A stretch of 64,000 bases of DNA from Pseudodesulfovibrio nedwellii (GTDB lineage: Bacteria > Desulfobacterota > Desulfovibrionia > Desulfovibrionales > Desulfovibrionaceae). The first letter of the stretch is position 1. Every line of letters begins with the position of its first letter. Location: positions 2,909,501 to 2,973,500 of the forward strand of contig NZ_AP026709.1 in the NCBI RefSeq assembly GCF_027923765.1, read 5' to 3'. Of the stretch, positions 5,063 to 49,787 are shown piece after piece. A program made the translations under genes and the position numbers. The notes under the pieces were generated by a model. The model was given only the letters and a program-made list of their open reading frames with translations. It was not told the origin of the DNA and searched no databases.

Positions 5063-5808
5063 ATGCGTTGCGTGCATCCGCAGTGAAAATGCAAACGGTA
5101 TTATTGTAAAGGTTTCGCCTTTACGGCGACCTGCTTTTTTTGAGGCGAAAAAAAGGAGGCAAAAAACGCCTTCTTCGTTGTGCGTCTGATAGCGGACCCA
5201 AGAGCCTGTACGCGGCTTCACTGCCCGACAGGATTGTCTGTGGCACAGACTCGGTCGGGCTACGTTTCGCCGCGCGGGACAGGCTCTAAGGCCCGTTATC
5301 AATTTCTCGTCGTTGTAAGGGATTTCTCGGTGTAGGTGTTTGTTTTTGATTTGGGTTTTCGATAAATGCATACATATTTTTTGGTGTTTTATGCCATCGT
5401 GATAAATATATTTCATCATAGGTGTTTACTTTTAATTTCAAACTCTTCGCTCACCATAAAGGGCCTTGGGGTGTTTAACACCCCAACATCGCTCTCTCTC
5501 CGAAGACGAATTCTTTCCCGCTCAACCAGACGAAGACGGGAACCAGCCCTTGATTGGCGGTTTAGAAGCTGACCAATCGAAGGAGGCGGCTTTAGTCGGG
5601 GGATTAGACAATTTGTCTTAAACTGAAGGATAACGGGAGAGACAGGGCTTATATTTTTGACAGGGTGGAGCCGACTCGATTGGATCAGATTCTTACCGCA
5701 GATCATGGGGGCGGCCAAGCTCGTAAAGCGCCTTTTCTTTCGTCTATTTCTTTTGGCGCAGCAAAAGAAATAGACTCCGCCGGAAGGGCGCGCTTTAGCG
5801 CAATCTTT
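5063..5808 (-). repeat. Modular intergenic repeat, copy A (left module beta, right module delta)
   Basis: The gap 5001-5909 holds no convincing gene but a repeat read right to left. It starts after the terminator at 5807-5838 with a beta module: an inverted repeat of 13 bp (TATTTCTTTT stem, GCTGCGCC loop). Next comes the shared core at 5682-5704 (GATCTGCGG then AGAATCTGATCC on the minus strand). The long delta module follows, down to 5063. The delta part matches 49.2-49.8 kb over about 600 bp in opposite orientation, apart from about 95 extra AT-rich bases near 5340-5440 here. The 138-codon frame at 5416-5832 on the minus strand is judged spurious. Confidence 0.85.
5201..5287. other. Conserved multi-stem fold inside the delta module of repeat A
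   Basis: The outer arms AGAGCCTGT (5201-5209) and ACAGGCTCT (5279-5287) are perfectly complementary. Inside are CCCGAC/GTCGGG and a hairpin GTCTGT/ACAGAC. The copy at 49562-49649 keeps the outer and middle stems exactly and changes mainly loops. Could be an RNA structure or a DNA hairpin recognised by an enzyme. Confidence 0.5.
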
Positions 5809-5838
5809 AAAAAAATAAAACGCCGTCCTCAAGACGGC
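5807..5838 (-). terminator. Rho-independent terminator of the 3D-domain gene
   Basis: Stem GCCGTC/GACGGC (5822-5838) followed on the minus strand by GTTTTATTTTTTT. It lies about 70 nt past the stop of the gene at 5910-6302 and directly before repeat A. Confidence 0.75.
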
Positions 5839-5909
5839 ATCCTTATTTCTTTTCCCTCAATGGAGGCAGCCTCCATCCTTCTTCAGGCCCGCTGCTCGAA
5901 GCGCTCCCT

Positions 5910-6302
5910 CTACTTCCAGTAGATGGTCGCCGTCCGCTCTCCAAATTCCCGAGCTTTTTTTACATCGACCCCAAAATATAGATCAATCCGCCGTTTGAAT
6001 CGTTTATTCATTTTGTCCAAAACAACATAAGGTCCGCCGAGTCCTTCAATATGTACTTCGGCCTGATTCCCCAAGCCCATGGGAATAAGGTCGCGCGACA
6101 CTGCCACACTTTTCATGCCGGGTTTGAGCTTGTTCGCCCATGCCGCAACAAATGGATTGCCGTCTGTCTGCCCCCGCGTAGAGTTGTATGCCGTCACCGT
6201 CACCTCCAGACTTTTCCAGAATACCGGATTAGGAATACTCAACCCTGCACTCACAAAGGTCATCAGCCCGACCACGGTCATGGAAAGAATAAAATATTTC
6301 AT
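5910..6302 (-). CDS. 3D (Asp-Asp-Asp) domain protein, exported
   Basis: 130 residues. An N-terminal hydrophobic segment (residues 4-22) acts as signal peptide or anchor. The rest follows the double-psi beta-barrel 3D domain found in YuiC/MltA-like cell-wall proteins: VTVTAYNSTRGQTDGNP, then AVSRDLIPMGLG, GGPYVVLDKMNKRFKRRIDLYFG. In the family these aspartates form the active site of lytic-transglycosylase-like enzymes. Two of the three expected aspartates are clear (LDK and RIDLYFG). It probably acts in the periplasm on peptidoglycan. It is a single-gene unit with its own terminator. Confidence 0.75.
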   Translation of the reverse strand: MKYFILSMTVVGLMTFVSAGLSIPNPVFWKSLEVTVTAYNSTRGQTDGNPFVAAWANKLKPGMKSVAVSRDLIPMGLGNQAEVHIEGLGGPYVVLDKMNKRFKRRIDLYFGVDVKKAREFGERTATIYWK

Positions 6303-6387
6303 AACTCAGTGCGTTACATGAGGAAATAAAGATCGGCAAGACAATGTCGTTAGCGTCATCCTGTTTGGTTGTTTTCTGATGAATTGT

Positions 6388-7104
6388 TTATGATTCGGTG
6401 CAATATGCTGCGAATCGTTTCAGCACCGATGCTGATTCCGGTGTTTCAACCACCGCATCGCGAAGACTATTTGCATCCCCACCCTGATCCGTGATTTTCC
6501 CTCGCAATTGTTCAATATAATAGCAGATGGCCTCGGCATTGAATTCCGGGTGAAACTGTACTCCCCATGCGTGGTTGCCTACACGGAAACATTGGTGTGG
6601 ATCATGGTCGCTGGCAGCGAGCACGGTGGCGTTCGGTGGCAGGCTGAGTGCGGTTTGGGAATGGGTGACATGGCCCTTGAAAAATGAGGGCAGACCGCCA
6701 ATGAGTGGGTCGGCCATGCCGTTTTCGGTCAACGTGACATCGACGGTACCAATTTCCAATCCATTGGGATGAAATCCGGCCTCGCCGCCCAGAGCATGAG
6801 CCATCAGCTGATGGCCGAAACAAATGCCGAGCATGGGGAGTTCCGTATCAATGGCTTCGCGCAACCATTGGGTCGTAGCGGTTATCCATGGTAGATCATC
6901 TGTGACCATGTCGTGGGAGCCGGTGATGACACACCCTGCAATGTTGGCCGGATCGGGCAATGATGCGCTCGTGCGGACGTCCACACAGAGGCAATCTTCA
7001 AGGGACAATCCCATGCCATTGGCTGTCCAATGTTCGAAATCGTCGTGATCGTGGGTGAACTCTTCAAAAGTGCCGCCGGTTTTGATGATCAGGATTTTTT
7101 TCAT
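6388..7104 (-). CDS. Class I glutamine amidotransferase (GMP synthase glutaminase-like)
   Basis: 238 residues, cytoplasmic. The catalytic triad is visible: nucleophile cysteine in LGICFGHQLMAHALGG near residue 95, and the histidine-glutamate pair in GVQFHPEFNAE near 180. The N-terminus ILIIKTGGTF and GCVITGSHDMVTD fit the lone GATase1 family related to GuaA and YfeJ-like proteins, which hydrolyse glutamine to pass ammonia to a partner or act on gamma-glutamyl compounds. No synthetase domain is attached, so the true substrate is unknown. Divergent from the M48 peptidase gene. Confidence 0.85.
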   Translation of the reverse strand: MKKILIIKTGGTFEEFTHDHDDFEHWTANGMGLSLEDCLCVDVRTSASLPDPANIAGCVITGSHDMVTDDLPWITATTQWLREAIDTELPMLGICFGHQLMAHALGGEAGFHPNGLEIGTVDVTLTENGMADPLIGGLPSFFKGHVTHSQTALSLPPNATVLAASDHDPHQCFRVGNHAWGVQFHPEFNAEAICYYIEQLRGKITDQGGDANSLRDAVVETPESASVLKRFAAYCTES

Positions 7105-7242
7105 GAAAGACCTGCGAAAGCGTTTTGGAGTGAATGAAAGATTGGATGATGGCGCAAGGTATCCAGACTGTCAACGGGCCGTGTGTAGACTTGAATTGTT
7201 ACCCCGCTTTGCGGTATTGTATGGCAAGCACAGGAGAGTATA

Positions 7243-8616
7243 ATGGACTATATTAATATTGTCAGACAGTTGAGTCGCCGAGATTTTATGAAAGCCGGGG
7301 GCATGACAGTCCTTGGTCTCGCTTTTGGCGGATGTGCAAAAAACCCTGTTACTGGCGAGAATCAGTTTATGCTGGTCAGTGAGGAACAGGAAATTCAGAT
7401 GGACAGAAAGGCTTCGCCGCAACAACTGTCCAACGATTATGGTCCAACGCAGGATCTCGTGCTCAATGAATATGTGAGCGGCGTTGGCACGTCCCTGTCT
7501 GATCAATCGCATCGGCCGCAGATGCCGTACTCCTATCGTGTGGTCAACGCCAATTACGTCAATGCCTACGCTTTTCCGGGTGGGACCATTGCCTGTACTC
7601 GCGGTATCATGCTTGAAATCGACAACGAGGCTGAACTTTCGGCCTTGCTCGGTCATGAGATAGGACACGTCAACGCTCGGCACACTGCGGCGCGTATGAG
7701 TTCGCAAACCGTCATCGGTACATTAGCCGGTGTCGGTGGAGCGGCGGTGGGCGCAACATATGGTGGAACTTGGGGAGCTCTCGCGGGTGGTCTCGGTGGC
7801 CTTGGCGCAGGGTTGCTTCTGGCATCATACAGTCGCGACGACGAGCGGCAGGCAGACAGCCTTGGTATGGAATACATGACCCGTGCTCAATATAACCCGG
7901 ACGGCATGATAGGATTGATGGAAATGCTCAACGAACAGCATGATCGGGAGCCGAGTTCCGTTGAGATCATGTTTGCGACTCATCCAATGAGTTCAGAACG
8001 GTTGGCTACGGCGCGTAAACAGGCCGTTAATAAATATATGGGAGCCGGAGAGTACGCCATCTATCGCGAGCGGTATATGGACAACACCGCAGAACTCCGC
8101 AAGATCGGTCCGGCCATTAAGGAAATGCAGGACGCAGAAAAGCTTGGCGGTCAGAAGAAGTACGATGAAGCCGAGGAAAAGATGCAGTCCGCCCTGAAGA
8201 AGGTTCCGAACGATTACACCGGCCTTTTGCTTATGGCGAAATTGCAGATGGCCCAAAAAAAATATGAAGACGCTCTGCCTTACGCCATGGAAGCCAGACG
8301 AATTTATCCTGATGAGGCACAGGCCAGTCAATTGAGTGGGGTGCTTTTGATTCAATCCAAACAGTATTCCCAAGCGCATGATAATTTCGAGGCCTATGAC
8401 AAGGCGTTGCCCGGCAATCCTTATTCCAATTTTTTCAAGGGCTACAGTCAGGAAGGCATGGGCAACCGCGAAGAAGCGGCCCGTGAATATTACAAATTCC
8501 TTCAACAGGTTCGGCAGGGTGATCAAGCCGGTCACGCTTACCAACGTCTCATCGATTGGGGCTACATCAAGGGCGAGGTGCGCCCTGTGCGCGACCCCAT
8601 GTCTTATCTGGGATAA
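7243..8616 (+). CDS. M48-family metalloprotease with TPR tail, probable Tat-exported lipoprotein
   Basis: 457 residues; AGGAGAG lies 5 nt before the ATG. The N-terminus carries a twin-arginine motif (SRRDFMKAG) and then a lipobox-like LAFGGC, so it is probably exported folded and lipidated. The peptidase domain has the zinc motif HEIGH near residue 140 and the third-ligand region DERQADSLGMEYM. A glycine-rich segment lies between them, as in BepA/YfgC-type proteases. The C-terminal half has TPR-like helices (AEEKMQSALKKVP, ALPYAMEARRIYP). BepA relatives handle outer-membrane protein assembly and quality control. Monocistronic and convergent with nrdJ. Confidence 0.88.
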   Translation: MDYINIVRQLSRRDFMKAGGMTVLGLAFGGCAKNPVTGENQFMLVSEEQEIQMDRKASPQQLSNDYGPTQDLVLNEYVSGVGTSLSDQSHRPQMPYSYRVVNANYVNAYAFPGGTIACTRGIMLEIDNEAELSALLGHEIGHVNARHTAARMSSQTVIGTLAGVGGAAVGATYGGTWGALAGGLGGLGAGLLLASYSRDDERQADSLGMEYMTRAQYNPDGMIGLMEMLNEQHDREPSSVEIMFATHPMSSERLATARKQAVNKYMGAGEYAIYRERYMDNTAELRKIGPAIKEMQDAEKLGGQKKYDEAEEKMQSALKKVPNDYTGLLLMAKLQMAQKKYEDALPYAMEARRIYPDEAQASQLSGVLLIQSKQYSQAHDNFEAYDKALPGNPYSNFFKGYSQEGMGNREEAAREYYKFLQQVRQGDQAGHAYQRLIDWGYIKGEVRPVRDPMSYLG

Positions 8617-8635
8617 CGGTGTTCGCTTTTAGCGG

Positions 8636-8876
8636 GACCAGGACGCTGTCCTGGACTCTCCCAAATTTCTTATAGCGCCTTCGGTGAGCACTCATAGTCC
8701 GAAAAAGACTTTTAGTCCTGATGCAAATCGGGTTTTGATTTAGCTGACTAAGATCTCGCGAAGCGACATAAAAAGTTTAGGAAAAGAGAGGGATAGGGGG
8801 TCTGGGGGGAAGGGAGAGAAAGAACCCTTTACAAAGGGTTTTTCTCTCCCTTCCCCCCAGCCGTCGGAGACTTCTT
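8636..8876. repeat. Hairpin-type intergenic repeat, copy E, between convergent genes
   Basis: The gap between the M48 gene and nrdJ contains a short stem CCAGGACGCTGTCCTGG near 8638-8656, a conserved stretch ATAAAAAGTTTAGG near 8768-8782, a very long hairpin (8802-8860), and a variant of the CCGCCGGAGGC tail (CCGTCGGAGAC) just before the nrdJ stop. The same order occurs at 33.8 and 54.9 kb and in a looser form at 21.4 kb. Confidence 0.65.
8802..8860. terminator. Long bidirectional hairpin between the M48 gene and nrdJ
   Basis: Arms of about 28 nt, starting CTGGGGGGAAGGGAGAG and ending in its complement, pair with a two-base loop and a single bulge. An A-rich/T-rich stretch in the middle and its position between two stops suggest a shared terminator. 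Confidence 0.6.
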
Positions 8877-8879
8877 AAA

Positions 8880-11120
8880 CTACCCGCCGCACTTGGTATA
8901 AGCGCAGGATTTGCAGATGTGGCAACCTTCTTCGAAGACGAGCGGTTCGCCGCAATCCGGGCAGAGTTCCTTGTTGAGCGATGCGACCTGTACGTCAACG
9001 CGATCACCACTGAGATAGCGGGATTCGAAGACGTGGGCGATGGCATCGGGAATGGATTTGACCAGATGCTTTTTCATGAACTTGGGATTTTCGCCGCCGA
9101 TACCCTTGAGCTGTTCGACGATCTCGCGCACTTCAACGCCGGAACGCAGGGCAAGAGAGACAAGCCTGCCAATGGCTTCGGCCTTGGCGGTGATTGATCC
9201 ACCGGATTTGCCGATGGTGGCAAAAACTTCGAAGGGTTTGCCGTCCATCTCGTTGACGGTCAGGAAAAGCATCCCGAGACCTGTGGCGATTTTTTGGGTG
9301 AATCCGTAAATGACATCCGGGCGATCCTGAACAACGGAAGTATCTTCTTCTTTTTTCTTGTCGCTTTCGCCAGTGCAGAGAACTTGGGATGTTTTGGAGC
9401 CGTCGCGGTATACCGTGACGCCCTTGCAGCCATATTCGTAGGCCTTCCAGTAGATGTTCCAGATGTCTTCCTTGGTGGCGTTGCTGGGCAGGTTCACGGT
9501 CTTGGAGACGGCATTGTCGGTGTGCTTTTGGAAAGCTGCCTGCATTTTGAGATGCCAGATAGGCTCGATATCCATTGATGTGACGAAGACGGTTCGTAAC
9601 TCTTCGGGCAGATGTTCCATCTTTTTAATGGTGCCGATCTTGGCTATTTCTTCCATAAGGTTGGCGGAATAGGCTCCGGCATCCTTGACCGCAGTTTCGA
9701 AAAAGGAGTTGGTCTCGACCAACTTGTCGTTGTCCATGACGTTACGCACGAAGGACAGGGCAAACAGCGGTTCTACGCCGGAGGAACAGCCTGCTATGAT
9801 GGACAGAGTGCCGGTGGGCGCGATGGTTGTGGTCGTGGCGTTGCGGTAGGGGCCGAGATTGGCCTCACCGAAAATGGACTCGACGTATGTCGGGAAATGG
9901 CCGCGTTCGGTAGCGAGGGTCTTGGATGCGCTCCGGGCTTCGTCCTGCACGAATTTCATGACGCGCTCGCCCATATCTACGGCAGACTGGGAGTTGTAGG
10001 GAATTTTGAGCTGGTAAAGCAGGTCAGCCCACCCCATGACACCGAGACCGATCTTGCGGTTCATCTCAACGGTTTCGGTGATCTGAGGCAAGGGGTACTG
10101 GGAAGCGTCGATGACGTTGTCCAGGAACCTGACGGCTAAGTGTACGATGCGCTTGAGTTCATCCCAATCCACTTCGGAATCGTGACCGTTTTTGCCTTTG
10201 GCGAAGCACTTGCCGAGGTTGATGGAGCCGAGATTACAGGCTTCGTAAGGCAGCAAGGGCTGTTCGCCACAGGGGTTGGTAGACTCCATGTCACCGAGTT
10301 TGGGCGTGGGATTGTCGCGGTTGATACGATCCAAGAAGACGATCCCCGGATCGCCGGATTCCCATGCCTTTTGTACCAAAATATTGAAGACGTCACGGGC
10401 ATTGAGTGAGCCCACTTTTTCGCCGGAATTGGGGGCGATGAGATCAAAGTCTGCTTTTTTCTCAACAGCCTTCATGAATGCTTCTGTCAGTCCGATGGAT
10501 AGGTTGAAGTTGTTCAATTCTCCATCGCGTTCTTTGGCCTTGATGAAATCCATGATGTCTGGGTGGTCGACGCGTAAAATGCCCATGTTCGCGCCGCGTC
10601 GGGTGCCGCCCTGTTTGATTTGTTCAGTGGCGCAGTTGAAAATCTTGAGGAAGGAGAGAGGCCCGGATGCCACACCGCCAGTGGAACCGACCACGGAATC
10701 TTTGGCGCGTAGGCGGGAGAAAGAAAATCCTGTGCCGCCGCCGGACTTATGGATCATGGCTGCGTGCTTCACGGCGTCGAAAATACCTTCGATATCATCC
10801 TCGATCGGCAGGACGAAACAGGCGGCCAATTGTCCGATGTCGGTGCCTGCGTTCATGAGAGTGGGGGAGTTGGGCAGGAAACGATATGAGGTCATCAGTT
10901 CGTAGAACTCACGCGCCAGCTTGGTGGATTTGAACGAAGACTCCTTATACTTGTCTTCTTCTTCAGCAATGGCTGCCGCCACTCTCCAGAAGAGTTCCTT
11001 GGTGGTCTCGTAAGTGACCCCCTCGGTGTCTTTCCGTTGGTAACGCCGTTTCAAAACTATCTTGGCGTTTTCATTGATAATCGGGTCGGAAAGACTTGCG
11101 GGCATTTTGAGTTTTGACAT
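8880..11120 (-). CDS. nrdJ: Adenosylcobalamin-dependent (class II) ribonucleoside-diphosphate reductase
   Basis: 746 residues; GAAGG lies 7 nt before the ATG. It makes deoxyribonucleotides using B12 and no oxygen-dependent cofactor. Visible features: RFLPNSPTLMNAG near the substrate site, ACFVLPIEDD, KSGGGTGFSFSRLR, the active-site motif NPCGEQPLLPYEACNLGSINL, ATTTTIAPTGTLSIIAG, and a C-terminal zinc-ribbon-like tail (LCPDCGEPL, CHICKSC, then CGG), the redox tail typical of the long NrdJ form. Length is slightly short of the 750-860 seen in many relatives. Single gene with an upstream gap of about 370 bases. Confidence 0.96.
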   Translation of the reverse strand: MSKLKMPASLSDPIINENAKIVLKRRYQRKDTEGVTYETTKELFWRVAAAIAEEEDKYKESSFKSTKLAREFYELMTSYRFLPNSPTLMNAGTDIGQLAACFVLPIEDDIEGIFDAVKHAAMIHKSGGGTGFSFSRLRAKDSVVGSTGGVASGPLSFLKIFNCATEQIKQGGTRRGANMGILRVDHPDIMDFIKAKERDGELNNFNLSIGLTEAFMKAVEKKADFDLIAPNSGEKVGSLNARDVFNILVQKAWESGDPGIVFLDRINRDNPTPKLGDMESTNPCGEQPLLPYEACNLGSINLGKCFAKGKNGHDSEVDWDELKRIVHLAVRFLDNVIDASQYPLPQITETVEMNRKIGLGVMGWADLLYQLKIPYNSQSAVDMGERVMKFVQDEARSASKTLATERGHFPTYVESIFGEANLGPYRNATTTTIAPTGTLSIIAGCSSGVEPLFALSFVRNVMDNDKLVETNSFFETAVKDAGAYSANLMEEIAKIGTIKKMEHLPEELRTVFVTSMDIEPIWHLKMQAAFQKHTDNAVSKTVNLPSNATKEDIWNIYWKAYEYGCKGVTVYRDGSKTSQVLCTGESDKKKEEDTSVVQDRPDVIYGFTQKIATGLGMLFLTVNEMDGKPFEVFATIGKSGGSITAKAEAIGRLVSLALRSGVEVREIVEQLKGIGGENPKFMKKHLVKSIPDAIAHVFESRYLSGDRVDVQVASLNKELCPDCGEPLVFEEGCHICKSCAYTKCGG

Positions 11121-11190
11121 GGATGAACCTTCGTAAGCTGTTGAAAAAATTGTATTTATCTAAAAAAGTAGCGGAAAGTGAATGTAGGCA

Positions 11191-11205
11191 CTAGAGAATA
11201 TCTAG
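11191..11205. promoter_or_regulatory. Palindrome upstream of nrdJ (weak NrdR-box candidate)
   Basis: CTAGA-GAATA-TCTAG lies about 75 nt before the nrdJ start, in an otherwise featureless, AT-rich gap (11121-11491). Its overall look (CACTAG...TATCTAG) only loosely resembles an NrdR box, and no second copy is obvious. I see nothing else clear in this gap except a small ACCCTTTTTGAAGGG hairpin near 11344. Confidence 0.25.
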
Positions 11206-11491
11206 ATTATAGAAAGCAGACGAAAAACGCCAGCGCAAATTGCATTTTCATGCATAAAGACCGGGAAGCCTTGACCTGTCTTGGTTGTCAGCTTTGAGGG
11301 TCTTATCAAAAATAGTTATTATTTCATTTTTGGTATTTTTTACACCCTTTTTGAAGGGCGTGAGTAACGGAAAGGGGATTTGAGTCATCAACAAATAATG
11401 TCACTTTAGCTCATGAGATTCAATCACGAATATAACAGGGGACTTGTTGACTCAGGGAGGGTGAAATTCGTCTTAGATATCAAAGTGGGGA

Positions 11492-12235: not shown

Positions 12236-12252
12236 GACACTAGATGGTTTTG

Positions 12253-13017: not shown

Positions 13018-13037
13018 GATGACTCCTTGAATGGTCG

Positions 13038-20108: not shown

Positions 20109-20136
20109 GGCCGCCTATACAGGCGGCCTTTTTTTT
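20109..20136 (+). terminator. Terminator of the aminotransferase gene
   Basis: GGCCGCC/GGCGGCC stem with loop TATACA and eight T residues. It is followed after about 25 nt by repeat copy B. Confidence 0.9.
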
Positions 20137-20159: not shown

Positions 20160-20396
20160 AGAAAAAGATTGCGCCAACGCGCGCCCTTCCGGCGGAGTCC
20201 ATTTCTTTTGCTGCGCCAAAAGAAATAGACGAAAGAATAGGCGCTTGCGCGAACTGGGCCGCCCGGTGATCGGCGGCGAGAATCTGATCACCGCGCGCAG
20301 CTTTCGGAATCGTGTTCTTCTGCTCCGCTCCAGTGCAATTCCGAACGAGGCGCTGCCGATGCGCGCTGTCAGCTTCTAGGCCTCTCGATCAAGGAC
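20160..20396 (+). repeat. Modular intergenic repeat, copy B (beta module, gamma module)
   Basis: Begins AAAGATTGCGCC, has the beta hairpin (CATTTCTTTT stem, loop GCTGCGCC, AAAAGAAATAG), the shared core at 20268-20290 (GATCGGCGG then AGAATCTGATCA), and a gamma module ending CAGCTTCTAGGCCTCTCGAT then CAAGGACTG. The beta part matches repeat A (opposite strand); the gamma part matches repeat C. Beyond it, 20400-20590 is AT-rich with no gene visible and belongs to the low-GC block of the following gene. Confidence 0.85.
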
Positions 20397-20590: not shown

Positions 20591-21316
20591 ATGATGACAA
20601 AAACTTTTCTATATATGGATCAATTAACCTGCCGCAATAAACAAAATGAAATTGATGCTTATAGCAATTGGATCGAGTGCCGCCTATTCCCTTCCATTGA
20701 TTCATGGGATTCTGAACAAAAACGAACGGAACACGAAATAAATGAACGCAACGAAAGAAAAAATTTCTCTGAATGGCACGACCCCTTAGATGAATTTGAA
20801 GAAATAATTACTCAAACCCTTCAGGTTGCAGAGGTAAATTCATATATGATTGGGGTTTCCATTTCTGGTTTGTACCATCTTTGGGAAAAACAAATTATTG
20901 ACCATTTAATTCACGAATTAAAACATGATTGGGTTATCCCTGAAAAACATTTAATGAAAACATGGAATGAGATTAATTACATATTTAAATCATACTCAAC
21001 AAACCTTTCCCAAATGTCCTTTTATAAAAACCTTGAAGAGCTTCGTTTAGTTTCAAACACAATCAAACATGGTAATGGGAGCAGTTATAGGCAACTCGTC
21101 GGAATAAAAGCTGACATAGTAAAACCGTATAACAAATCTAACAATCAACCCATTATCGGTGGGAACCATTCCCTTATCCGAGTTGATCTCTTTCCACGCA
21201 TTGATCATTATATGAAATATAAACAAGCGGTATTGGACTTCTGGAATTTTGACATCTGGCATTCACAAGGCGAACGGTTACCCTTTGATAATTGGCCTGA
21301 AAAGAAAAAACGATGA
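20591..21316 (+). CDS. AT-rich gene for a HEPN-like protein of unknown function
   Basis: 241 residues, no membrane helix. The codons and flanks are clearly AT-richer than all neighbours, pointing to recent transfer. The segment LEELRLVSNTIKHGNGSSY resembles the N-x3-HG element of HEPN-domain proteins, but the usual arginine before the asparagine is serine, so ribonuclease activity is doubtful. SISGLYHLWEKQIIDHL and the N-terminal helices also fit an all-alpha fold. Relatives of this type often occur in defence or abortive-infection loci; no toxin, antitoxin or nuclease partner is visible here. The ATG pair at 20591 is preceded by AAAGGG. Confidence 0.6.
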   Translation: MMTKTFLYMDQLTCRNKQNEIDAYSNWIECRLFPSIDSWDSEQKRTEHEINERNERKNFSEWHDPLDEFEEIITQTLQVAEVNSYMIGVSISGLYHLWEKQIIDHLIHELKHDWVIPEKHLMKTWNEINYIFKSYSTNLSQMSFYKNLEELRLVSNTIKHGNGSSYRQLVGIKADIVKPYNKSNNQPIIGGNHSLIRVDLFPRIDHYMKYKQAVLDFWNFDIWHSQGERLPFDNWPEKKKR

Positions 21317-21339: not shown

Positions 21340-21465
21340 TCTTTACCCCTCCCGCTGCAAAGCGGGCAATGGGATTCCTAAGGCCCTCGGCCTTAGGCGG
21401 GTCCAGGGCGGCGCCCTGGTCTCTCCGAAGGAGCGCCCCAGCGAGGCCGCCGGAGGCCCTTCCCC
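21340..21465. repeat. GC-rich hairpin cluster, copy F, between convergent genes
   Basis: Three stems in a row: CCCGCTGCAAAGCGGG, CTAAGGCCCTCGGCCTTAG and CCAGGGCGGCGCCCTGG, followed by GCCGCCGGAGGC directly before the uvrA stop. Related in its tail to copies E, G and H. Its placement between the HEPN-like gene and uvrA suggests two-way termination. Confidence 0.6.
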
Positions 21466-21466
21466 G

Positions 21467-24232
21467 CTACTTCAAAAACTGACCAGTAGCGCTGTCGGGG
21501 TTGGCGAGAATTTCTTCGGGCGTACCGCTGGCGACGATTTGGCCGCCGTGCTCGCCTCCGCCGGGTCCGAGATCGAGGACATGATCGGACGCCATGATAA
21601 CGTCGGTGTTGTGCTCGATAACGATGACAGTGGCGTTCTTGTCGACAAGAGCATGAAGAACACGGATGAGCTTGCCGACCTCGTGCATGTGTAGACCGGT
21701 GGTCGGCTCGTCGAGAATGTAGAGCGCACCGGGCAGCTTGCGCTTGCCAAGCTCGCGGGAGATTTTGATGCGCTGCGCTTCACCGCCGGAAAGCGTTGTG
21801 GCGGGCTGGCCAAGCTTGAGATATTCGAGACCGACCTGGGCGAGCACGTCGAGCTTGCGCATGAGGGAGGGATGGTTGGCAAAGAATTCACGGGCCTGAC
21901 GCACGGTCATGTTGAGCACGTCGGCGATGTTCTTGCCCTTGTACTCCACTTCAAGCGTCTGGGCGTTGTACCGCTTACCTTTGCAGGCTTCGCAGGTGAC
22001 GTACACGTCGGGTAGGAAATGCATTTCGACGCGGATTTGGCCGTCCCCCTTACAGGCTTCACACCGCCCACCCTTGACGTTGAAAGAGAATCGTCCGGGC
22101 TGATAGCCGCGTGTACGCGCTTCTTTTGAACCAGCGAAGATTTTGCGAATCTCGTCGAAGATTTTGGTGTAGGTGGCAGGATTGGAACGCGGCGTCCGAC
22201 CAATGGGCGTCTGGTCGATGGAAATGACTTTTTCGATCTTTTCAAGGCCGTCGATACCGCCGATTTTGCCGGGGTTGTTGGCTTTCTGCCCACGATGCAG
22301 CAGCAGATGCTTGTACATGGAGTCCATGACGAGGGAGGACTTGCCCGAACCGGATACGCCGGTCACACAGGTCATGACGCCAAGCGGAATTTCCACATCA
22401 AGATTCTTGAGATTGTTGGTCTGCACACTGCGGAGGGTGATGAATTCCTTGGCCTTGCGACGGGATTCGGGCGGCTCGATAAACATGTCGCCACGCAAAT
22501 ATTTGCCGGTCAGGGAATCCGCTGTGAGCAACTTGTCCACAGGACCTTGATACACGATTTCGCCACCAAGCCAGCCCGAACTGGGGCCGATTTCGATGAC
22601 GTGATCCGCTTCGCGAATGGTCTCCTCGTCATGCTCGACCACGAGCACGGTGTTGCCCCGGCGTTGCAGGGAGCGAAGCGTGTCGAGAAGCCGCTGATTA
22701 TCGCGAGGATGCAAGCCGATGGACGGTTCATCGAGAACATATGTTACGCCGACCAGCCCGGAACCAAGCTGAGAGGCAAGACGAATCCGCTGGGCTTCGC
22801 CGCCGGACAGGGTGCCCATGTTTCGACCAAGCGACAAGTATTCAAGGCCTACGTTGACCATAAAGCCGAGTTTGTGGGTCAGTTCCTTGAGTAATGGTTC
22901 GGAAATAAGTGTGTCGTGACCATCAAATTCCAATTCGTTTAACCAGTCGAGCGCACGTTGAATGGACATGGACGCGAACTCGTACATATTTTTGTCTGCG
23001 ACACGCACAGCAAGGGCTTCTGGTTTGAGGCGTGCACCTTTGCAATCAGGACATGGTCGCGACTGCTGAAACCGGGCAGTCCAATGATCCCATATGCCGG
23101 ACTGCATCTGGCCGTATTCAAGAATGGGAACGATCCCCTGCCAATTGACCTTGGGGTTGCCGTAAAACAAATCATCCCACGCTTCGGCTGAAAAATCAGA
23201 TAATGGAGAATCCAAAGTGATGCCGTGTATTTTACACAGCGCCTTGAGCTTCGGCCCGTATTGTTCCTGCCGGTAGGCGGACTTCCACGGGATCACACCG
23301 CCTTCGTTCAGGGAAAGTCCCTTGTTGGGTGCAATGAGGTCAGGCTCAAAATATTCGACAGTGCCGATACCGTTGCAAGTGGGACACGCCCCCTGCGGCG
23401 AGTTGAAGGAAAAGAGTTGCGGGGTCAATCGCGGTAAGGAAATTTTGCAGGACGGACAGGTCGACAACGTAGACATAGGGATGTCGCCAGAATTATCGCC
23501 ACCAACCACGGCCACGGTTAAACGCTCATCGCCACGCTCAAGAGCCAGCTCCACGGAATCCGTGAGTCGTTTTTTGATGCCGTCTTTGATGACAAGCCGG
23601 TCCACAACCAGATCAATGGTGTGCTTCTTGTGCTTTTCAAGCTCCGGCACGTCGTCGAGGGTGTACATTTGCCCACCGATTCGCACTCGCACAAAGCCTT
23701 CTTTCTTGAGCTTGGCGAACAAGTCCTTGTGTGTACCTTTCTGATGCTCAATCAGTGGAGCCAGCAACATAAACTTGGTGCCCTGCTCCATGGCGAGGAT
23801 GGTCTGCACGATCTCATCTGTGGTCTGGGCCGCGATAGCCTTGCCACACTTGGGACAATAAAATTTGCCGAGTCGTGCGTAGAATACTCGCAGAAAATCA
23901 TAAACCTCGGTCACAGTGCCGACCGTAGAACGCGGGTTGCGCGTGGCGGTTTGCTGTTCCAAGGATATTGCCGGGGACAATCCCTCGACCTTGTCAACAT
24001 CCGGCTTGTCCATTTGGGGCAAAAACTGGCGAGCGTATGCGGACAGGGATTCGACATACCTCCGCTGTCCTTCGGCATAGACGATGTCGAAGGCAAGCGT
24101 GGATTTGCCCGAGCCTGACGGACCACACACCACGACCAACTGATCGCGGGGGATGTCCAAAGTCAGGTCCTTGAGATTATGATGCCGGGCGCCTTCTATA
24201 TGAATGAATTTCTTATCTGCTGATTGAGTCAT
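21467..24232 (-). CDS. uvrA: Excinuclease ABC subunit A
   Basis: 921 residues from the ATG at 24232 (MTQSADKKFIHIEG); the open frame has 32 more codons upstream without family resemblance. Two ABC modules are intact: GPSGSGKSTLAFD and GVSGSGKSSLVMD Walker A motifs, two LSGGEAQRI signatures, and zinc-finger pairs CPKCGK and CEACKGDG/CEACKGKRY. UvrA scans DNA for lesions and loads UvrB in nucleotide excision repair. No uvrB or uvrC is nearby. Convergent with the HEPN-like gene and divergent from the CopZ-like gene. Confidence 0.97.
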   Translation of the reverse strand: MTQSADKKFIHIEGARHHNLKDLTLDIPRDQLVVVCGPSGSGKSTLAFDIVYAEGQRRYVESLSAYARQFLPQMDKPDVDKVEGLSPAISLEQQTATRNPRSTVGTVTEVYDFLRVFYARLGKFYCPKCGKAIAAQTTDEIVQTILAMEQGTKFMLLAPLIEHQKGTHKDLFAKLKKEGFVRVRIGGQMYTLDDVPELEKHKKHTIDLVVDRLVIKDGIKKRLTDSVELALERGDERLTVAVVGGDNSGDIPMSTLSTCPSCKISLPRLTPQLFSFNSPQGACPTCNGIGTVEYFEPDLIAPNKGLSLNEGGVIPWKSAYRQEQYGPKLKALCKIHGITLDSPLSDFSAEAWDDLFYGNPKVNWQGIVPILEYGQMQSGIWDHWTARFQQSRPCPDCKGARLKPEALAVRVADKNMYEFASMSIQRALDWLNELEFDGHDTLISEPLLKELTHKLGFMVNVGLEYLSLGRNMGTLSGGEAQRIRLASQLGSGLVGVTYVLDEPSIGLHPRDNQRLLDTLRSLQRRGNTVLVVEHDEETIREADHVIEIGPSSGWLGGEIVYQGPVDKLLTADSLTGKYLRGDMFIEPPESRRKAKEFITLRSVQTNNLKNLDVEIPLGVMTCVTGVSGSGKSSLVMDSMYKHLLLHRGQKANNPGKIGGIDGLEKIEKVISIDQTPIGRTPRSNPATYTKIFDEIRKIFAGSKEARTRGYQPGRFSFNVKGGRCEACKGDGQIRVEMHFLPDVYVTCEACKGKRYNAQTLEVEYKGKNIADVLNMTVRQAREFFANHPSLMRKLDVLAQVGLEYLKLGQPATTLSGGEAQRIKISRELGKRKLPGALYILDEPTTGLHMHEVGKLIRVLHALVDKNATVIVIEHNTDVIMASDHVLDLGPGGGEHGGQIVASGTPEEILANPDSATGQFLK

Positions 24233-24368
24233 TGACCGAGAGTAACCATTCCTGAATAGAAGGCAAGCCGGAAGGGGAAAATGATGGGAATGGTCAAATT
24301 GCACATTGACTTTCGACACAACGGTCACACTCTAATTCAGATACTAGACTTTTCAAGGAGGGATTTGA

Positions 24369-24973: not shown

Positions 24974-25042
24974 CCCGGAAGAAAAGCCAAACCCGTTGCG
25001 AAACGGGGACGGAAAGCCACGGGTCTCATTGAGACCGCCGGG
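24974..25042 (+). ncRNA. Cyclic-di-GMP-I (GEMM) riboswitch aptamer
   Basis: CCCGG (24974-24978) and CCGGG (25038-25042) close the element. Between them are the conserved GCCAAACC, a six-pair stem CCCGTT/AACGGG capped by a GNRA loop GCGA (24992-25007), the sequence GGGACGGAAAGCC (consensus GGGACGCAAAGCC), and a second stem GGTCTC/GAGACC (25022-25036). The order, spacing and sequence fit the GEMM-I aptamer. It ends about 80 nt before an HD-GYP gene, a usual target. A competing pairing for the second stem lies at 25077-25083. Confidence 0.82.
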
Positions 25043-25122
25043 TTGTCAAAGCCATACTCCATGAATCCACTTGATACGGTCTCTGATTGCTTTGGCTTCC
25101 CCGCTTTCCCAAGGGAAAAAGA

Positions 25123-26553: not shown

Positions 26554-26822
26554 GGAGAAACGCCTTTGGCGACAGTTATTATTGGATGCTGAAGACTTAA
26601 CTTTTCCATGTACTACGCGGTCGGCGGATCTTTTTGGCAGAGCTACCCCAAAAGAACTCAAAAAATCGGCTTATGTATTTGGTTGCCTGGTGATCGGCGG
26701 CGAGAATCTGATCAACGCGTGCAGTTTTTGGAATCGCGTTTTTTTGCTGCGCTCCAGTGCAAGTCCTAACGGGACGCTGCTGTTGTGCGCTGTCAGCTTC
26801 TAGGTTTTTCGATCAAGGACTG
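26554..26822 (+). repeat. Modular intergenic repeat, copy C (alpha module, gamma module)
   Basis: Starts CGCCTTTGGCGACAGTTATT, contains the alpha hairpin (GATCTTTTTGG ... CCCCAAAAG), the shared core at 26692-26714, and the gamma module ending CAGCTTCTAGGTTTTTCGAT then CAAGGACTGG. Alpha matches repeat D and gamma matches repeat B. The small frames inside are judged spurious. The gap 26459-26918 contains this, two terminators and nothing else visible. Confidence 0.85.
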
Positions 26823-33834: not shown

Positions 33835-33905
33835 GAAGGCGCACTAAAAAGTTCTGGAAATCCTCAAGAACCTTTTTCAAAAGGTTCTTGAGCCGCCGGA
33901 GGCCT
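33835..33905. repeat. Hairpin-type intergenic repeat, copy G, reaching into the EamA gene
   Basis: CTAAAAAGTTCTGGA is followed by a 14-bp stem (CTCAAGAACCTTTT / AAAAGGTTCTTGAG, 33863-33892) and CCGCCGGAGGC. The stop codon of the EamA-type gene lies inside the first arm, so the repeat encodes its last 12 or so residues. Confidence 0.75.
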
Positions 33906-43561: not shown

Positions 43562-43587
43562 ACATAGCGCTGTTATAAAGCAGATGA

Positions 43588-43615
43588 GGGTCGCCTGAGG
43601 GCGGCCCTTTTTTTT
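43588..43615 (+). terminator. Terminator of the SulP gene
   Basis: GGGTCGCC/GGGCGGCCC stem with loop TGA and about eight T residues, touching the stop codon of the convergent sigma-54 activator gene. Confidence 0.85.
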
Positions 43616-45038: not shown

Positions 45039-45143
45039 GATCCCTTCTATTAGCCGTAAGTGGGACAGTTTACAAGAGGTTCACTCTTTTCAAGGGTTGA
45101 ACGGTGTTTTTGGAAACCTGTCAAGTTGATTGTTTATACCTTT

Positions 45144-45203
45144 TTGACGCTTTTCCTCGATATTCGCTGACATCTTGACGCTTGGTCGAAACCCTGTGTT
45201 AGG
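45144..45203 (+). promoter_or_regulatory. Possible promoter of the deacetylase-glycosyltransferase operon
   Basis: The word TTGACGCTT occurs twice, at 45144 and 45175; the second is followed after 18 nt by TTAGGT, giving a loose sigma-70-like promoter about 190 nt before the start at 45395. The long leader contains AGCCGT/ACGGCT (near 45279-45306) followed by GGTTTTT, a possible attenuator. Otherwise the 45039-45394 gap has no gene visible. Confidence 0.3.
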
Positions 45204-45394
45204 TTTTCCGCAAAATTCATGAAGTCGTTTTATGTCGAAAATCATTCCCCCAACGAGTGCTCGATCACGAAGCACTGAATTACGAAGAGCCGTTCGTCAT
45301 TGGTGGACGGCTTCAACTATGGTTTTTCCCCTTTCCTTGCCCTGTTCTGACCCATCTGGTACTTCTCGGTTGCTTAACCGCAAACGAGAAAATA

Positions 45395-47497
45395 ATGATC
45401 AGAACATCAATACCTGTCCTTTGCTATCATAACGTCAGTGACATCGACGGCCATACGCCGGAGTTGTTTCGTGAACACCTGGACGCCATTGTCAACGCTG
45501 GCTGGCACACCATCTCTTCCCGCGACTTGCTGGCCGTGACGCGGGGACAGATGAGGGCCCCGAAGAAATCCGTGGTCCTGACTTTTGATGACGGTCATCT
45601 GTCCAATTGGCTGACCGTGGTTCCTGAACTGGAAAAACGGAACATGACCGGCACATTCTTCGCTTTGAAAGATTTCACTGTGGACGGTCCTGTGCGCACA
45701 TTTGAAACTGCTCCTGACATGATGACCATGCCGGAGACGTTCAAAGCCGCACACCTCAATGGTGATTTTTCTCAATTCATTAATAAGAGTGAATTTAAGG
45801 CCATGCTCGATAAGGGAATGGAAGTATTTTCGCATGGCTGCCGTCATCAGGGCGCATTCCTTGACCTCAAGCCGCTCCAACCCATGGGGCAGAATGCTCA
45901 CTGGGGGGCATGGTCCATTTATCCCGGTTATAATGAGGACTGGCTGACCTTCAAAGTCGGTAGTGCCTATGTCTACGGCGGTTTTCAGCCCACTTTCAAC
46001 GGTTCAGGAAAACCCCATTTTGTCCAGAGATCCGTCGCAGATCGTCGGGCTTTCTGTCGCAAGGAATTCCGTAAGAGTATCGAATGGATTCGTGATCTGA
46101 ATGGCTACGACGAACAACTTTTTTGTTGGCCATGGGGTCAGTTCTGTGATGATGCGCAGGAAGAATTGCACAAGGCTGGATATGTTGGTGCATTCACTTT
46201 GGAACGGTGGGTCAATGCCAAGGGCACGAATCCGTTTCGGTTGAATCGTATTGGCGTGGGCAAGAAAAAGACCGGTAAATGGATTCAGTCCCGCTTACGT
46301 ATGTACGGTTCTGATCCAGCGGCTCGGGTGTTTTTCAAGTTGCACACCAAGCGGCCTGAGGTGCAGAGCGTATTGTATGCCACGGATTCTGCAAAGTTGT
46401 CTGGCGGCAGTCGTCAGATGATCAACAATATCAAAGCGATGTCCGACATGGGTGTCAAGACTTATGCCGTAATCACCAGCGATACGCCCATCAACGCCGC
46501 GCTCGAAGGGCTGGACGTGGAAGTTTTCCATTTCGATGAATTCAAGAAGTACAAGAAATCCGGTCAATTCCTGAAAAAGCTGGTGCGGAATAATGCTATT
46601 GATGTGGTGCATACTTTCCACAATCGGGCGTACAAAATGGGCGTGCTGGCACGACTCATGGGTGCCAAGTGCAAGTTGTTCATCAATAGAGGTGTTATTT
46701 CCAAGCCCAACTCGATATTTTTTCTGTGGACCGCATTGGCTGACGGTGTGATAGCCAATTCACGGCAATGTGCAGAAGTCATGCACAAGTATCATGTGCT
46801 GAAAAAACGGCTAAACGTAGTTTACAATGCTTATGTGGGACCAGATTTTGGCGATCCCAAGCCACGCAAGAAGCGTGGAATCCGTTTTATTTACATCGGT
46901 AACACCGTGGACATCAAAGGGTATGACGTGTTTCTTGATGCGGCATCCGCTCTTTGTGAAAATGGTGATTGTCGGGATATGGAGTTTGTGGCCGTGGGTG
47001 TTCCCGAAGATCGGCGGGAATGGTTTGCAGACCACATGACCCCGGCTGTCAGAGAGCGTCTTCATTTGCCCGGTGTCATTCCTCATGAACAGGTGCTTGA
47101 GGAGCTGGCTTTTTCAGATGTGCAGGTCATGACCTCGCGTAAAGAGAGCCTGCCCAATGCTTTGCTTGAAGGGTTTGACCTTGGCGTTCCGGCCATTTGT
47201 ACCCGTGTGGGCGGGGTGCCGGAGATTGTCCGTGATGGCGTCAATGGGTTTTTATGCGAGAGCGAAGACGTTGCGTGTCTGGCTGAAAAAATGCGGTATA
47301 TGGCTGACAATCCTGCGGCGCGCTTTTCCATGGGGTGTGGCGGACGGGCTTTGGTCCGTACCATGTTGACCCCTGAAGCCAAGGGGCGGAATCTCATGCG
47401 TGTGTATATGGGAGAAACCCTGTGCGAGCCATTGGACATGGACAGCCTGCCCAAGGCGCAGAGCGAGGAGCAGATTTATGGCAAGAGCGATCACTGA
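45395..47497 (+). CDS. Polysaccharide deacetylase-glycosyltransferase (GT4) fusion
   Basis: 700 residues from the ATG at 45395; the frame upstream has no family resemblance. The first 310 residues are a NodB-like deacetylase (LTFDDGHLSNWLTVVPEL; FSHGCRHQG as histidine pair; WPWGQF). From about 335 comes a GT4/GT-B domain: ATDSAKLSGGSRQMINNIKAM, VVHTFHNRAYKMGVLAR, YIGNTVDIKGYDVFLDA and the C-terminal donor site MTSRKESLPNALLEGFDLGVPAICTRVGG. A single chain could deacetylate and extend a surface glycan. It overlaps the next glycosyltransferase gene by 20 nt. Confidence 0.87.
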   Translation: MIRTSIPVLCYHNVSDIDGHTPELFREHLDAIVNAGWHTISSRDLLAVTRGQMRAPKKSVVLTFDDGHLSNWLTVVPELEKRNMTGTFFALKDFTVDGPVRTFETAPDMMTMPETFKAAHLNGDFSQFINKSEFKAMLDKGMEVFSHGCRHQGAFLDLKPLQPMGQNAHWGAWSIYPGYNEDWLTFKVGSAYVYGGFQPTFNGSGKPHFVQRSVADRRAFCRKEFRKSIEWIRDLNGYDEQLFCWPWGQFCDDAQEELHKAGYVGAFTLERWVNAKGTNPFRLNRIGVGKKKTGKWIQSRLRMYGSDPAARVFFKLHTKRPEVQSVLYATDSAKLSGGSRQMINNIKAMSDMGVKTYAVITSDTPINAALEGLDVEVFHFDEFKKYKKSGQFLKKLVRNNAIDVVHTFHNRAYKMGVLARLMGAKCKLFINRGVISKPNSIFFLWTALADGVIANSRQCAEVMHKYHVLKKRLNVVYNAYVGPDFGDPKPRKKRGIRFIYIGNTVDIKGYDVFLDAASALCENGDCRDMEFVAVGVPEDRREWFADHMTPAVRERLHLPGVIPHEQVLEELAFSDVQVMTSRKESLPNALLEGFDLGVPAICTRVGGVPEIVRDGVNGFLCESEDVACLAEKMRYMADNPAARFSMGCGGRALVRTMLTPEAKGRNLMRVYMGETLCEPLDMDSLPKAQSEEQIYGKSDH

Positions 47498-49052
47498 TGG
47501 ATTGATCGAATTCTGGCAGTCGTTGCCCGAAGACCTTAAGGCTAAATTGCGCCTTGGGTTTACCGGGAAAAAACATTTGCTGGATATTGCCGGATGGTGT
47601 CTGCGTTCTGGTAATCCGGCTGTGATGCCCATTGCCGTCGATGCTCTTGAAACTGTTGTTCGCGAAAATCCACTCGACGGACGTATGGCTGCCGAGTTGC
47701 TTGCGTTGAATCCGATTAAAGATATTTTGTCATCGGAAGTCGTGGAAAAGCTGACTGTGGTGGCAAATTATTATCAGGCACCTGGCCCCTCTGATCCTTT
47801 TATGAAGCTTCGAGCGAGCCGAGATTTTTTGGTACTCAAAGACTTTATTCGTACTCAAGTCACGAAGGAGCCGAATAATTTATATTGGCGAGAACAGGCG
47901 TTGACTATTGGTGTGTTTAATTTCGACACCGATTTCTGTGTCGAAATATTATCAAACGACATTGAGTCAAGTGCTGAAAGTGTGATTAGTATCGCATTAT
48001 CTCGAGTCAGAGCGTTGTCGTCTCCTGAAAAAACGATCGATACAGGTCAGCTTTTGAATGATTTGGCTACTGCACCATGGAATATGGGATTGGCTCTGCG
48101 TGGGTATGACGTGCTGGCCGGAGTGGCTGAAATGAGGACGGCTCTGCCGGGTTCTGTCGCCCTGTTGTTGTATTCATGGAACAAGGCGGATGAGTTGGAT
48201 GCAACTTTGGCGTCGCTTCTCGATTCTGATTTGACTGGTGCATCGCTTTTCGTGCTGGATAATGGATCGACTGATCGGACAGCCGAGGTCCTTGCCGGAT
48301 GGGAGTCCCGGTTTGTGGCCGAGCTTGGTGCTGATCGATTTACGGTAATATCGTTGCCGGTGAATGTGGGAGCTGCATCGGCGCGGAACTGGTTGCTGCA
48401 TATGGATGTGGTGCAGGAACATGAATTTGTTTGTTATCTCGACGACGATGTAGAGTTATCCAAGGATTGGTTGTCTTGGCTTGGAGCAGCGGTAAAGGTG
48501 TACCCGGAGGCAGGTGTTTGGGGATGCAAGGTCGTGGATCATGCCAATGGGTTGCTAATCCAGAGTGCGGACAGTCATTTGCTGGCCGAGCCGGATACTA
48601 TTGTGGATTTTTCAAGGCTGGCGCCGAATCCGTTCAAACTTTCCGATCTGCATATTCAGACGGTGGATTCTGGCGATTTTGATTTTATGCGGCCCTGTGC
48701 GTCTGTGACCGGCTGCTGTCATCTTTTCCGAACCGAAACTCTACTTGAGTCCGGTGATTTTGCGATTCAGCTTTCTCCGTCGCAGTATGACGACATGGAG
48801 CATGATATTCGTTTGTGTGAGGCTGGATTATTTCCGGTTTATCAAGGGCATCTGGCTGTGCGGCATAAGAAGCGTACGGGTGTTGCGTCTCATACCTCAA
48901 TGCAGGAAGAAGGGAATGCTTTGGGGAATAAATATAAGATGCAAACCATGCACGGGGTTGAGGAGGTGTGTGCTGCCGCACGGGCTGAACAGGCTGTTTT
49001 GGAAGTTGATATTTTGGTGAAATTGAAATTCCTTGAAGAGTATATGAAATAA
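47478..49052 (+). CDS. GT2-family glycosyltransferase with N-terminal extension
   Basis: 524 residues from the ATG at 47478, with GAGGAG seven nt upstream; the start lies inside the end of the preceding gene. About 220 N-terminal residues of unknown helical type are followed by a GT-A domain: LYSWNKADELDATLASLLDSD, VLDNGSTDRTAEVLAGW, NVGAASARNWLL and the metal motif CYLDDDVEL. It transfers sugars to a glycan or protein. Operonic with the deacetylase-GT4 fusion; together they probably build one surface polymer or modify flagellin-like proteins. Confidence 0.87.
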   Translation: MARAITDGLIEFWQSLPEDLKAKLRLGFTGKKHLLDIAGWCLRSGNPAVMPIAVDALETVVRENPLDGRMAAELLALNPIKDILSSEVVEKLTVVANYYQAPGPSDPFMKLRASRDFLVLKDFIRTQVTKEPNNLYWREQALTIGVFNFDTDFCVEILSNDIESSAESVISIALSRVRALSSPEKTIDTGQLLNDLATAPWNMGLALRGYDVLAGVAEMRTALPGSVALLLYSWNKADELDATLASLLDSDLTGASLFVLDNGSTDRTAEVLAGWESRFVAELGADRFTVISLPVNVGAASARNWLLHMDVVQEHEFVCYLDDDVELSKDWLSWLGAAVKVYPEAGVWGCKVVDHANGLLIQSADSHLLAEPDTIVDFSRLAPNPFKLSDLHIQTVDSGDFDFMRPCASVTGCCHLFRTETLLESGDFAIQLSPSQYDDMEHDIRLCEAGLFPVYQGHLAVRHKKRTGVASHTSMQEEGNALGNKYKMQTMHGVEEVCAAARAEQAVLEVDILVKLKFLEEYMK

Positions 49053-49057
49053 GGAAG

Positions 49058-49081
49058 GGCCGCTTTGGAAGCGGCCTTTTT
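49058..49081 (+). terminator. Terminator of the glycosyltransferase operon
   Basis: GGCCGC/GCGGCC stem with loop TTTGGAA and a run of five T residues. Repeat copy D follows within about 5 nt. Confidence 0.85.
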
Positions 49082-49085
49082 GTTA

Positions 49086-49787
49086 GGAAGATGTGCCTTC
49101 GGCGAGAGTCATTGTTGGGCGCTGAAGCACCCAAGGCTTTCCATGCCCTGCGCGGGCGGCGGATCTTTTTGGCTGAACCGCCCCAAAAAGAACCAAAAAA
49201 CTCGGCTCACTAGTTTGGCCGCCCCCATGATCTGCGGCAAGAATCTGATCCAATCGAGTCGGCTCCACCCGATTAAAAGTATAATCCCTTCCTCTTCCTT
49301 TATCCCCCAGTCTAAGACAAATTATCTGACTCCTTTATAAGAGCCGCCTCCTTCGATTGGTTAGCTTCTAAGCAGCCAATCAAAGGCTGGGTTCCGTCTT
49401 CGTCTGGTTTGGGAGGGAAAGAAATCGTCTTCGGAGGGAGAGCGGTGTTGGGGTGCTGGAGCACCCCAAGGCCCTCTGTGGATAACGAAGAGCCTTAAAT
49501 CAGAAATGGACACCTACACCGAGAAATCCCTTACAACGACGAACAATTGATAACGGGCCTTAGAGCCTGTCTCGCGTGGCGAATCGTAGCCCGACCGAGT
49601 CTGCTGTCACAGACAATCCTGTCGGGCAGTGGAGCCGCGTACAGGCTCTTAGGACCGCTATCAGGCTCACACCGAAAAGGCGTTTTTTGCCTCCTTTTTT
49701 TCGCCTCAAAAAAAGCAGGTCGCCGTAAAGGCGAAACCTTTTTAATAAAGACCGTTTGTACCTTCACTGCGAAGCACGCAACGCCCA
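49086..49787 (+). repeat. Modular intergenic repeat, copy D (alpha module, delta module)
   Basis: Opens with GCCTTCGGCGAGAGTCATTG and the alpha hairpin (GATCTTTTTGGC ... CCCCAAAAAGAACC), shares the core at 49229-49251, and carries the delta module through to ACGCAACGCC at 49785. Delta is inverted relative to repeat A, 44 kb away. Its end (CACTGCGAAGCACGCAACGCC, from about 49765) is echoed by an imperfect direct repeat from about 49828. The gap 49053-49879 contains nothing else but the terminator. Confidence 0.88.
49562..49649. other. Conserved multi-stem fold inside the delta module of repeat D
   Basis: Outer arms AGAGCCTGT (49562-49570) and ACAGGCTCT (49641-49649), a middle stem CCCGAC/GTCGGG and a small inner hairpin, the same as at 5201-5287 but with changed loop bases. 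Confidence 0.5.

Follow-up and report, generated by a model that had tools for sequence, protein, structure and literature searches.

Folded intergenic elements of Pseudodesulfovibrio and the exchangeable AT-rich genes adjoining their short form

The window analysed here, a stretch of 64,000 nucleotides at positions 2,909,501-2,973,500 of the single 3.76-Mb contig of the Pseudodesulfovibrio nedwellii genome (G000), carries four members of a genus-wide family of folded intergenic elements. The unit common to all four, E1, comprises a T-rich hairpin and a stem that contains a conserved core, and in some copies it continues into a second module, E2. The four elements, A to D, were found at the places given by the initial annotation, and they do show all four combinations of a left (alpha or beta) and a right (gamma or delta) part. 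Element A (5063-5808, minus strand) is an E1 with a beta T-hairpin and a delta-topped core stem, and it continues into E2 with its reversed T-hairpin. Element D (49086-49787, plus strand) has an alpha T-hairpin and a delta top, and likewise carries the additional E2 and reversed T-hairpin. Elements B (20160-20396, plus strand; beta T-hairpin, gamma top, without E2) and C (26554-26822, plus strand; alpha T-hairpin, gamma top) represent the short E1. Our tentative reading is that the short form of this family is the fixed border of sites at which adenine- and thymine-rich (AT-rich), often defence-like genes are allelically replaced.

One such site is that of uvrA, where element B borders an exchangeable gene. 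The intrinsic terminator of the upstream gene (20109-20136, plus strand) is followed by element B, by a gene of 35% guanine plus cytosine (GC) encoding 241 amino acids (20591-21316, plus strand), termed cargo, and by the core gene uvrA (21467-24328, minus strand), which forms the right border of the site. The C-terminal 300 amino acids of the uvrA product match UvrA models, and orthologous matches were obtained in 34 of 36 genomes. Pseudodesulfovibrio sp. OB3 belongs to the same species as the window genome, the DNA around six full-length OB3 copies being 97.7-99.4% identical over 3.6-7.4 kb. Between these two strains the gene differs at three sites at which E1 is kept. At uvrA, the 241-residue protein of the window genome is exchanged for one of 262 amino acids in OB3; among relatives, G051 possesses a relative of the OB3 protein (87% identical) and G052 a 184-amino-acid gene. 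At genome position 2,027,795, an OLD/GajA-like ATPase in the window genome corresponds to a dGTPase-like protein in OB3, and at the polA site the products comprise 297 and 331 amino acids in the two strains, with further cargo in G006, G019, G050, G052, G047, G013, G022, and G002. At the cysK/cysS site, both strains have the same 190-amino-acid DUF6338 protein, and other cargo is found in G052, G051, G006, and G018. NCBIfam matches confirmed polA and uvrA; the C-terminal half of the cysK/cysS product resembles cysteine--tRNA ligase, and its other part we take to be a cysteine synthase.

The limits of the variable segment were compared by eye in close relatives. On the left, similarity runs through the E1 stem and stops 20-26 nt after TTCT, with GGCTA, GGCTG, GACTG, or GGCT at the border of the four sites compared. 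On the right, similarity resumes at the polA stop codon, no more than a few tens of bases from the cysK/cysS stop, and about 100-150 bases before the stop of uvrA. The low-GC stretches, most of which consist of one or two genes, lie on one side only. Of the 59 detections of E1 without E2, 16 (from 13 distinct stretches, of which three enter twice) showed a GC drop of 0.12 or more on the 3' side and none on the 5' side; for the 57 detections of E1 with E2, the corresponding numbers were 2 and 0. Element C has no adjoining cargo, and the GC content on its 3' side is not lowered.

As to what the cargo encodes, 20 of 34 cargo proteins were scanned with the PADLOC models, and 14 of these 20 matched at an E-value of 0.01. 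Strong matches include Old/GajA, dGTPase, AbiU, PDC-M19A, PDC-M19B, PDC-M30A, PDC-M36A, PDC-M53A, and PDC-M53B, and moderate ones were obtained for PDC-S42, PDC-M04A, and capP/RmrA. The 241-residue protein of the window (L400) showed a weak match to the HEPN-type model RTasHEPN (E 2e-4) and no Pfam family above the cut-off, and the OB3 protein at the uvrA site had weak endonuclease matches below the Pfam cut-off (PDDEXK_5, E 0.0035). No PADLOC match was obtained for two of the scanned proteins, L440, whose site has no E1, and L444, whose site has a reversed one. Pfam adds DUF3800, DUF488, HSDR_N, AIPR, and an IrrE-type peptidase. Judged by these matches, which name families, many cargo genes resemble phage-defence genes. 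At two places in G004 (L283, L288) a transposase-like gene, presumably of the IS110 type, adjoins E1 and cargo.

E1 is about 250 nt long. It opens with a T-rich strand and a loop, after which come an A-rich strand, a linker that is likewise A-rich, and a stretch complementary to that loop. Judged by eye, the loop differs from type to type and its complement differs with it (GCGCC/GGCGC, GGCCC/GGGCC, GGGGC/GCCCC, and GAGCCG/CGGCTC), and the loop of the T/A-rich hairpin and its 3' complement would form an H-type pseudoknot. The hairpin is followed by an imperfect stem of about 27 bp with a variable top. The core on which the initial annotation was built, GATCGGCGGC-A-AGAATCTGA-T-C.., is the 5' strand of this stem, and the 3' strand, ..TCAGCTTCT-AR-GCCGCCGATC, is likewise conserved. 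For the core pattern with up to 2 mismatches, 19 matches were found in the 3.76-Mb genome, as compared to none for the reversed pattern.

Covariation shows that the E1 stem is conserved. In the P stem, counted over 107 distinct elements selected for their closing pairs, 550 of 749 cells were Watson-Crick pairs, as compared to a mean of 354 and a maximum of 391 in 1000 partner shuffles uncorrected for kinship; the register, with one bulged T, was fixed after inspection of the sequences. Upper-stem pairing counted without this bulged T gave no signal (249 versus 258 shuffled). In the outer stem, 372 of 640 cells were Watson-Crick pairs, again uncorrected for kinship, versus a shuffled mean of 256 and a maximum of 289. 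The closing stem AGAA.CTGA/TCAG.TTCT, or a close variant of it, is present in the 107 distinct elements, which were selected for it. Gamma and delta are thus alternative tops of one stem. The initial annotation had described alternative modules to the left and to the right of the core. This stands for the left hairpin types but not for gamma and delta as unrelated right modules, as the two have the 3' strand TCAGCTTCTARGCC in common. The elements are nevertheless modular and do not represent one uniform decaying element: the left hairpin is of three or more types, and the stem carries one of several tops. Many E1 copies continue into E2, which consists of a long hairpin and, after it, a reversed T-hairpin; for 13 of the 28 pairs of the long hairpin, at least one sequence has both partners changed. 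At two sites (L262/L076 and L265/L081) 41 nt of a T-hairpin present in OB3 are missing from the window genome, probably deleted between short direct repeats. That the elements encode conserved small proteins was considered and rejected, as the reading frames differ between species (by eye, without statistics).

Strong covariation is also what would be expected if E1 and E2 were structured noncoding RNAs with a cellular function, homogenised by recombination like rRNA genes, and their multi-copy, genus-wide occurrence would agree with this. In E2, 57 G-U pairs are opposed to 5 A-C mismatches, in a structure that was predicted on this strand and therefore favours G-U. The corresponding bias in E1 is weak (60 G-U versus 40 A-C), the four elements of the window follow terminators, and no Rfam family fits the elements, for which 8 matches with E-values up to 1 were obtained in 7 loci, all below the gathering scores. 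A cellular RNA is on balance improbable. The terminators of the genes upstream of B and C stem from a computed listing, whereas those at A and D were judged by eye. That an element follows a terminator and reads in the direction of the gene, as initially proposed, holds for the four window elements, but the direction cannot be generalised to the family. According to crude gene calls, the nearest upstream gene was co-oriented at 32 and opposed at 22 of 54 sites in five genomes (13 and 5 in the window genome alone), and co-orientation was rejected as a rule.

The association of E1 with cargo was quantified in site panels that covered 30 of the 36 genomes. At polA, E1 was present in 10 of the 11 genomes with AT-rich cargo and in 0 of the 19 others (Fisher test, p 3.7e-7). 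The search depth was unequal: all 30 sites were searched over 1.5 kb, but nine of the stretches, mostly those with AT-rich cargo, were lengthened, eight of them to about 5 kb and one as far as the contig end, and these longer stretches account for five of the ten E1 finds. At the equal depth of 1.5 kb, the numbers are 5/11 versus 0/19 (p 0.003). At cysK/cysS, a convergent E1 was detected in 6 of 14 genomes with AT-rich cargo versus 0 of 16 (p 0.005), and an E1 in any orientation in 7/14 versus 2/16 (p 0.046). E1 and cargo are thus associated, but the association is not strict and differs in strength from site to site.

Allelic recombination is the most likely cause of the replacement of cargo. 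We infer that it is homologous, that one crossover would occur in E1 or in the gene before it and a second one in the core gene beyond the cargo (polA, uvrA, or cysK/cysS), and that the folded E1 might set the end point of the variable segment. This is the simplest account and needs no integrase, but by itself it leaves the border position of E1 unexplained. Several observations weigh against it. At the sites compared, no sequence common to the cargo ends was seen. The majority of sampled copies are without cargo; conversely, one of the 11 polA genomes with AT-rich cargo has no E1, and the AT-rich genes at cysK/cysS are often without a convergent E1, which only the 6 of 14 genomes possess. The E1 of G022 at this site is reversed, and G023 and G005, which have no AT-rich cargo, contain co-oriented copies. 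Beside polA, G046, also without AT-rich cargo, has a weak E1-like match of 20 bits that was not counted; if it is counted, the p value becomes 3.8e-6. At uvrA, the link is not significant (3/6 versus 5/24, p 0.3), or 4/7 versus 4/23 (p 0.06) when G051, which had been lost to rounding, is counted. The GC thresholds (0.15 for the polA and panel counts, 0.12 for the comparison of sides) were picked after the data had been seen. E1 could also be no more than a bystander where insertions are tolerated. The unequal search depth at polA, together with a difference in E1 between the two strains at site L267, lowers our confidence in what is still the best explanation.

An alternative is that E1 is the attachment structure of a folded-strand cassette system, in which a recombinase supplied in trans would attach cargo to the E1 3' end, similar to the use of folded attC sites by integron integrase. 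The long stem of E1 with its conserved mismatch, bulged T, and variable top resembles the attC architecture, the cargo border coincides with the E1 3' end at each of the four sites compared, cargo consists of one or two genes, and at 2027795 and L324 it is flanked by inverted E1 pairs. Against a cassette system speaks that cargo genes may point to E1 or away from it, that their ends lack a visible common sequence, as noted above, and that related cargo does not recur between sites: all four related pairs among the 34 proteins, 27 of which derive from three sites, are from the same site. The integron integrase model TIGR02249 was over the cut-off in 0 of the 36 genomes of the genus and also in 0 of 14 controls, so that this search had no positive control; weaker matches were present in all 36 genomes and probably represent other tyrosine recombinases. 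We consider such a system unlikely. In its more specific form, E1 would be the folded attachment site of an undescribed trans-acting cassette system that installs and replaces phage-defence genes at fixed chromosomal addresses, each of which would bear an E1 stem sequence of its own as its mark; this is rather unlikely. The mobile cassette system envisaged in the initial annotation is retained in one respect, as the gene directly 3' of the short form is exchanged, but the module at the core is not what is exchanged.

The family extends throughout the genus. Using element D as query, 43 matches were obtained in the window genome, and with element B 17. The latter query matched 17 of 41 genomes, namely its own, 16 of 24 congeners, and 0 of 16 genomes of other genera. 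Model R1, which corresponds to the left half of E1 and contains no base pairs, RNAalifold having predicted none from the alignment, detected copies in 9 of 9 genomes (the own genome and 8 congeners), and model R2, for the E2 hairpin, in 5 of 9. These copy counts are lower bounds, since the best 150 candidates were scored per genome and R1 copies were counted among the matches listed. In the window, R1 matches at 5664-5789 in element A (converted from genome coordinates, as is the R2 match at 5183-5308), at 20183-20307 in B, at 26610-26728 in C, and at 49144-49269 in D, in which R2 matches at 49541-49667. In a pattern scan of contigs, 7 of 118 stretches among the matches listed were full-length elements by R1, 6 in OB3 and 1 in Desulfovibrionaceae MIC098Bin4, the rest being at most partial; none of the 6 viral stretches among these matches showed a full R1 match. 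Tandem copies exist in G010 (L038, L040), G005 (L044), and G007 (L042), with units of about 370, 664, and 737 bp. In G019 (L322, L329, L335, L336), inverted E1 pairs face each other at a distance of about 120 bp with nothing between them, like empty brackets. No published description of these elements was found, as judged by titles and abstract openings, and the main text of an article on stem-loop repeat families contains no mention of Desulfovibrio (PMC2267715).

Copies within a genome resemble each other more than they resemble those of other species. In a set of 122 E1 sequences from 12 genomes, from which OB3 and other very close relatives were left out, 107 of the 112 copies outside the polA and cysK/cysS sites had their nearest relative in their own genome. 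Of the 10 polA and cysK/cysS copies, 8 were nearest to the same site in another genome, which is a weak result given that 5 of the 10 come from genomes with 1-2 sampled copies (the others: 3/5). Between the window genome and OB3, elements differ by 2.1% and flanks by 1.0% (20 aligned pairs). Site B was left out of this comparison; it is misaligned because its cargo differs between the strains, and with it the values are 3.7% and 1.5%. Furthermore, some breaks in gene order between G000 and G010 fall at elements. The exchange by recombination proposed in the initial annotation is consistent with these data: as the nearest relatives are in the own genome, recombination among copies is supported as an explanation of the module mosaics A to D, which may have arisen by partial exchange. 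The family is a clear case of the concerted evolution of structured elements.

Of 25 OB3 copies compared with the window genome, 21 match on both flanks, 3 on one, and 1 on neither, the last being the polA site, where both strains have E1. Several sites are common to different species by their gene neighbours, such as the flagellin-adjoining site in G000, G010, and G002. At L267, one of the 21, E1 is present in OB3 and the window genome keeps only E2, through either loss or gain. Mobility of E1 itself is unsupported. These data bear on the proposal that the elements are long-settled, non-autonomous transposable elements with a T-hairpin at each end, to which adjoining cargo would be incidental. 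The oppositely oriented T-hairpins at the two ends of A and D, the facing pairs in G019, the tandem copies, and the difference at L267 would fit such an origin. Inverted ends would be provided by the reversed T-hairpins in E2 and by the paired E1 of G019, but a single E1 has one end only. The conserved positions in both strains and across species argue for the contrary, two-sided compensatory change is unexpected in decaying elements, and neither a clean empty site nor a target duplication came to light, although no systematic search was made. A transposable origin is distinctly unlikely.

E2 loci lie around the replication origin. In five genomes, 66 of 67 were located in the half of the chromosome nearest the second dnaA, as compared to 22 of 67 in the half nearest the first. 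The position of the origin was checked by GC skew in G000 alone, where the sign changes between 2.37 and 2.56 Mb (20 sampled stretches) and the second dnaA is located, and it was assumed to be at this gene elsewhere. The two dnaA genes of G000 are at contig positions 116-1450 and 2537408-2538676, so that the skew puts the origin near the second and not at the first base of the contig. The family hence offers an example of elements restricted to that half of the chromosome which surrounds the origin.

Other features of the window comprise a c-di-GMP-I-UAU riboswitch (24977-25051, plus strand), besides which no Rfam family reaches its gathering score in the window, and two direct repeats of 230 nt (61446-61675 and 63454-63683; 78% alike), probably in paralogous genes. 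A 31-nt repeat (..TTGAGCCGCCGGAGGC) is present at 33873-33903 and 54947-54977 (87% alike), and a GC-rich tail similar to it adjoins uvrA near 21390-21440.

BIME/REP and BOX-type repeats are mosaic intergenic repeats, and the elements described here share with them a dispersed, intergenic, palindromic nature and modules in varying combinations. They differ by their greater length (about 240-750 bp), by a covarying stem of several parts, and by a short form that borders exchangeable genes. Integron cassette arrays also have a folded site that adjoins single accessory genes, defence genes among them. In contrast to these arrays, no integrase was over the cut-off here, cargo orientation is free, and the sites are single and scattered instead of forming one array. 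The attC boxes are GTTRRRY/RYYYAAC, unlike the E1 closing stem, for which the elements were selected without a separate attC search. Tn7-like transposons similarly carry defence genes as cargo beside a fixed site (PMC8649781); at the sites analysed here, neither transposition genes nor transposon ends were noticed, no specific search having been made. For the question of how single defence genes come to be swapped at fixed chromosome sites where no integrase is seen, the present sites offer a recognisable folded border element. As this element stands at one border of several sites, such sites can be found by sequence, their turnover can be measured, and new defence genes can be picked from the cargo. 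A further likeness is that to integrase-free hotspots, at which accessory genes are exchanged when flanking core genes recombine: sites are fixed beside core genes, cargo is replaced, and the flanks stay. What sets the present sites apart from these hotspots is a specific folded element at one border, the 3' end of which coincides with the border of the cargo at the sites compared.

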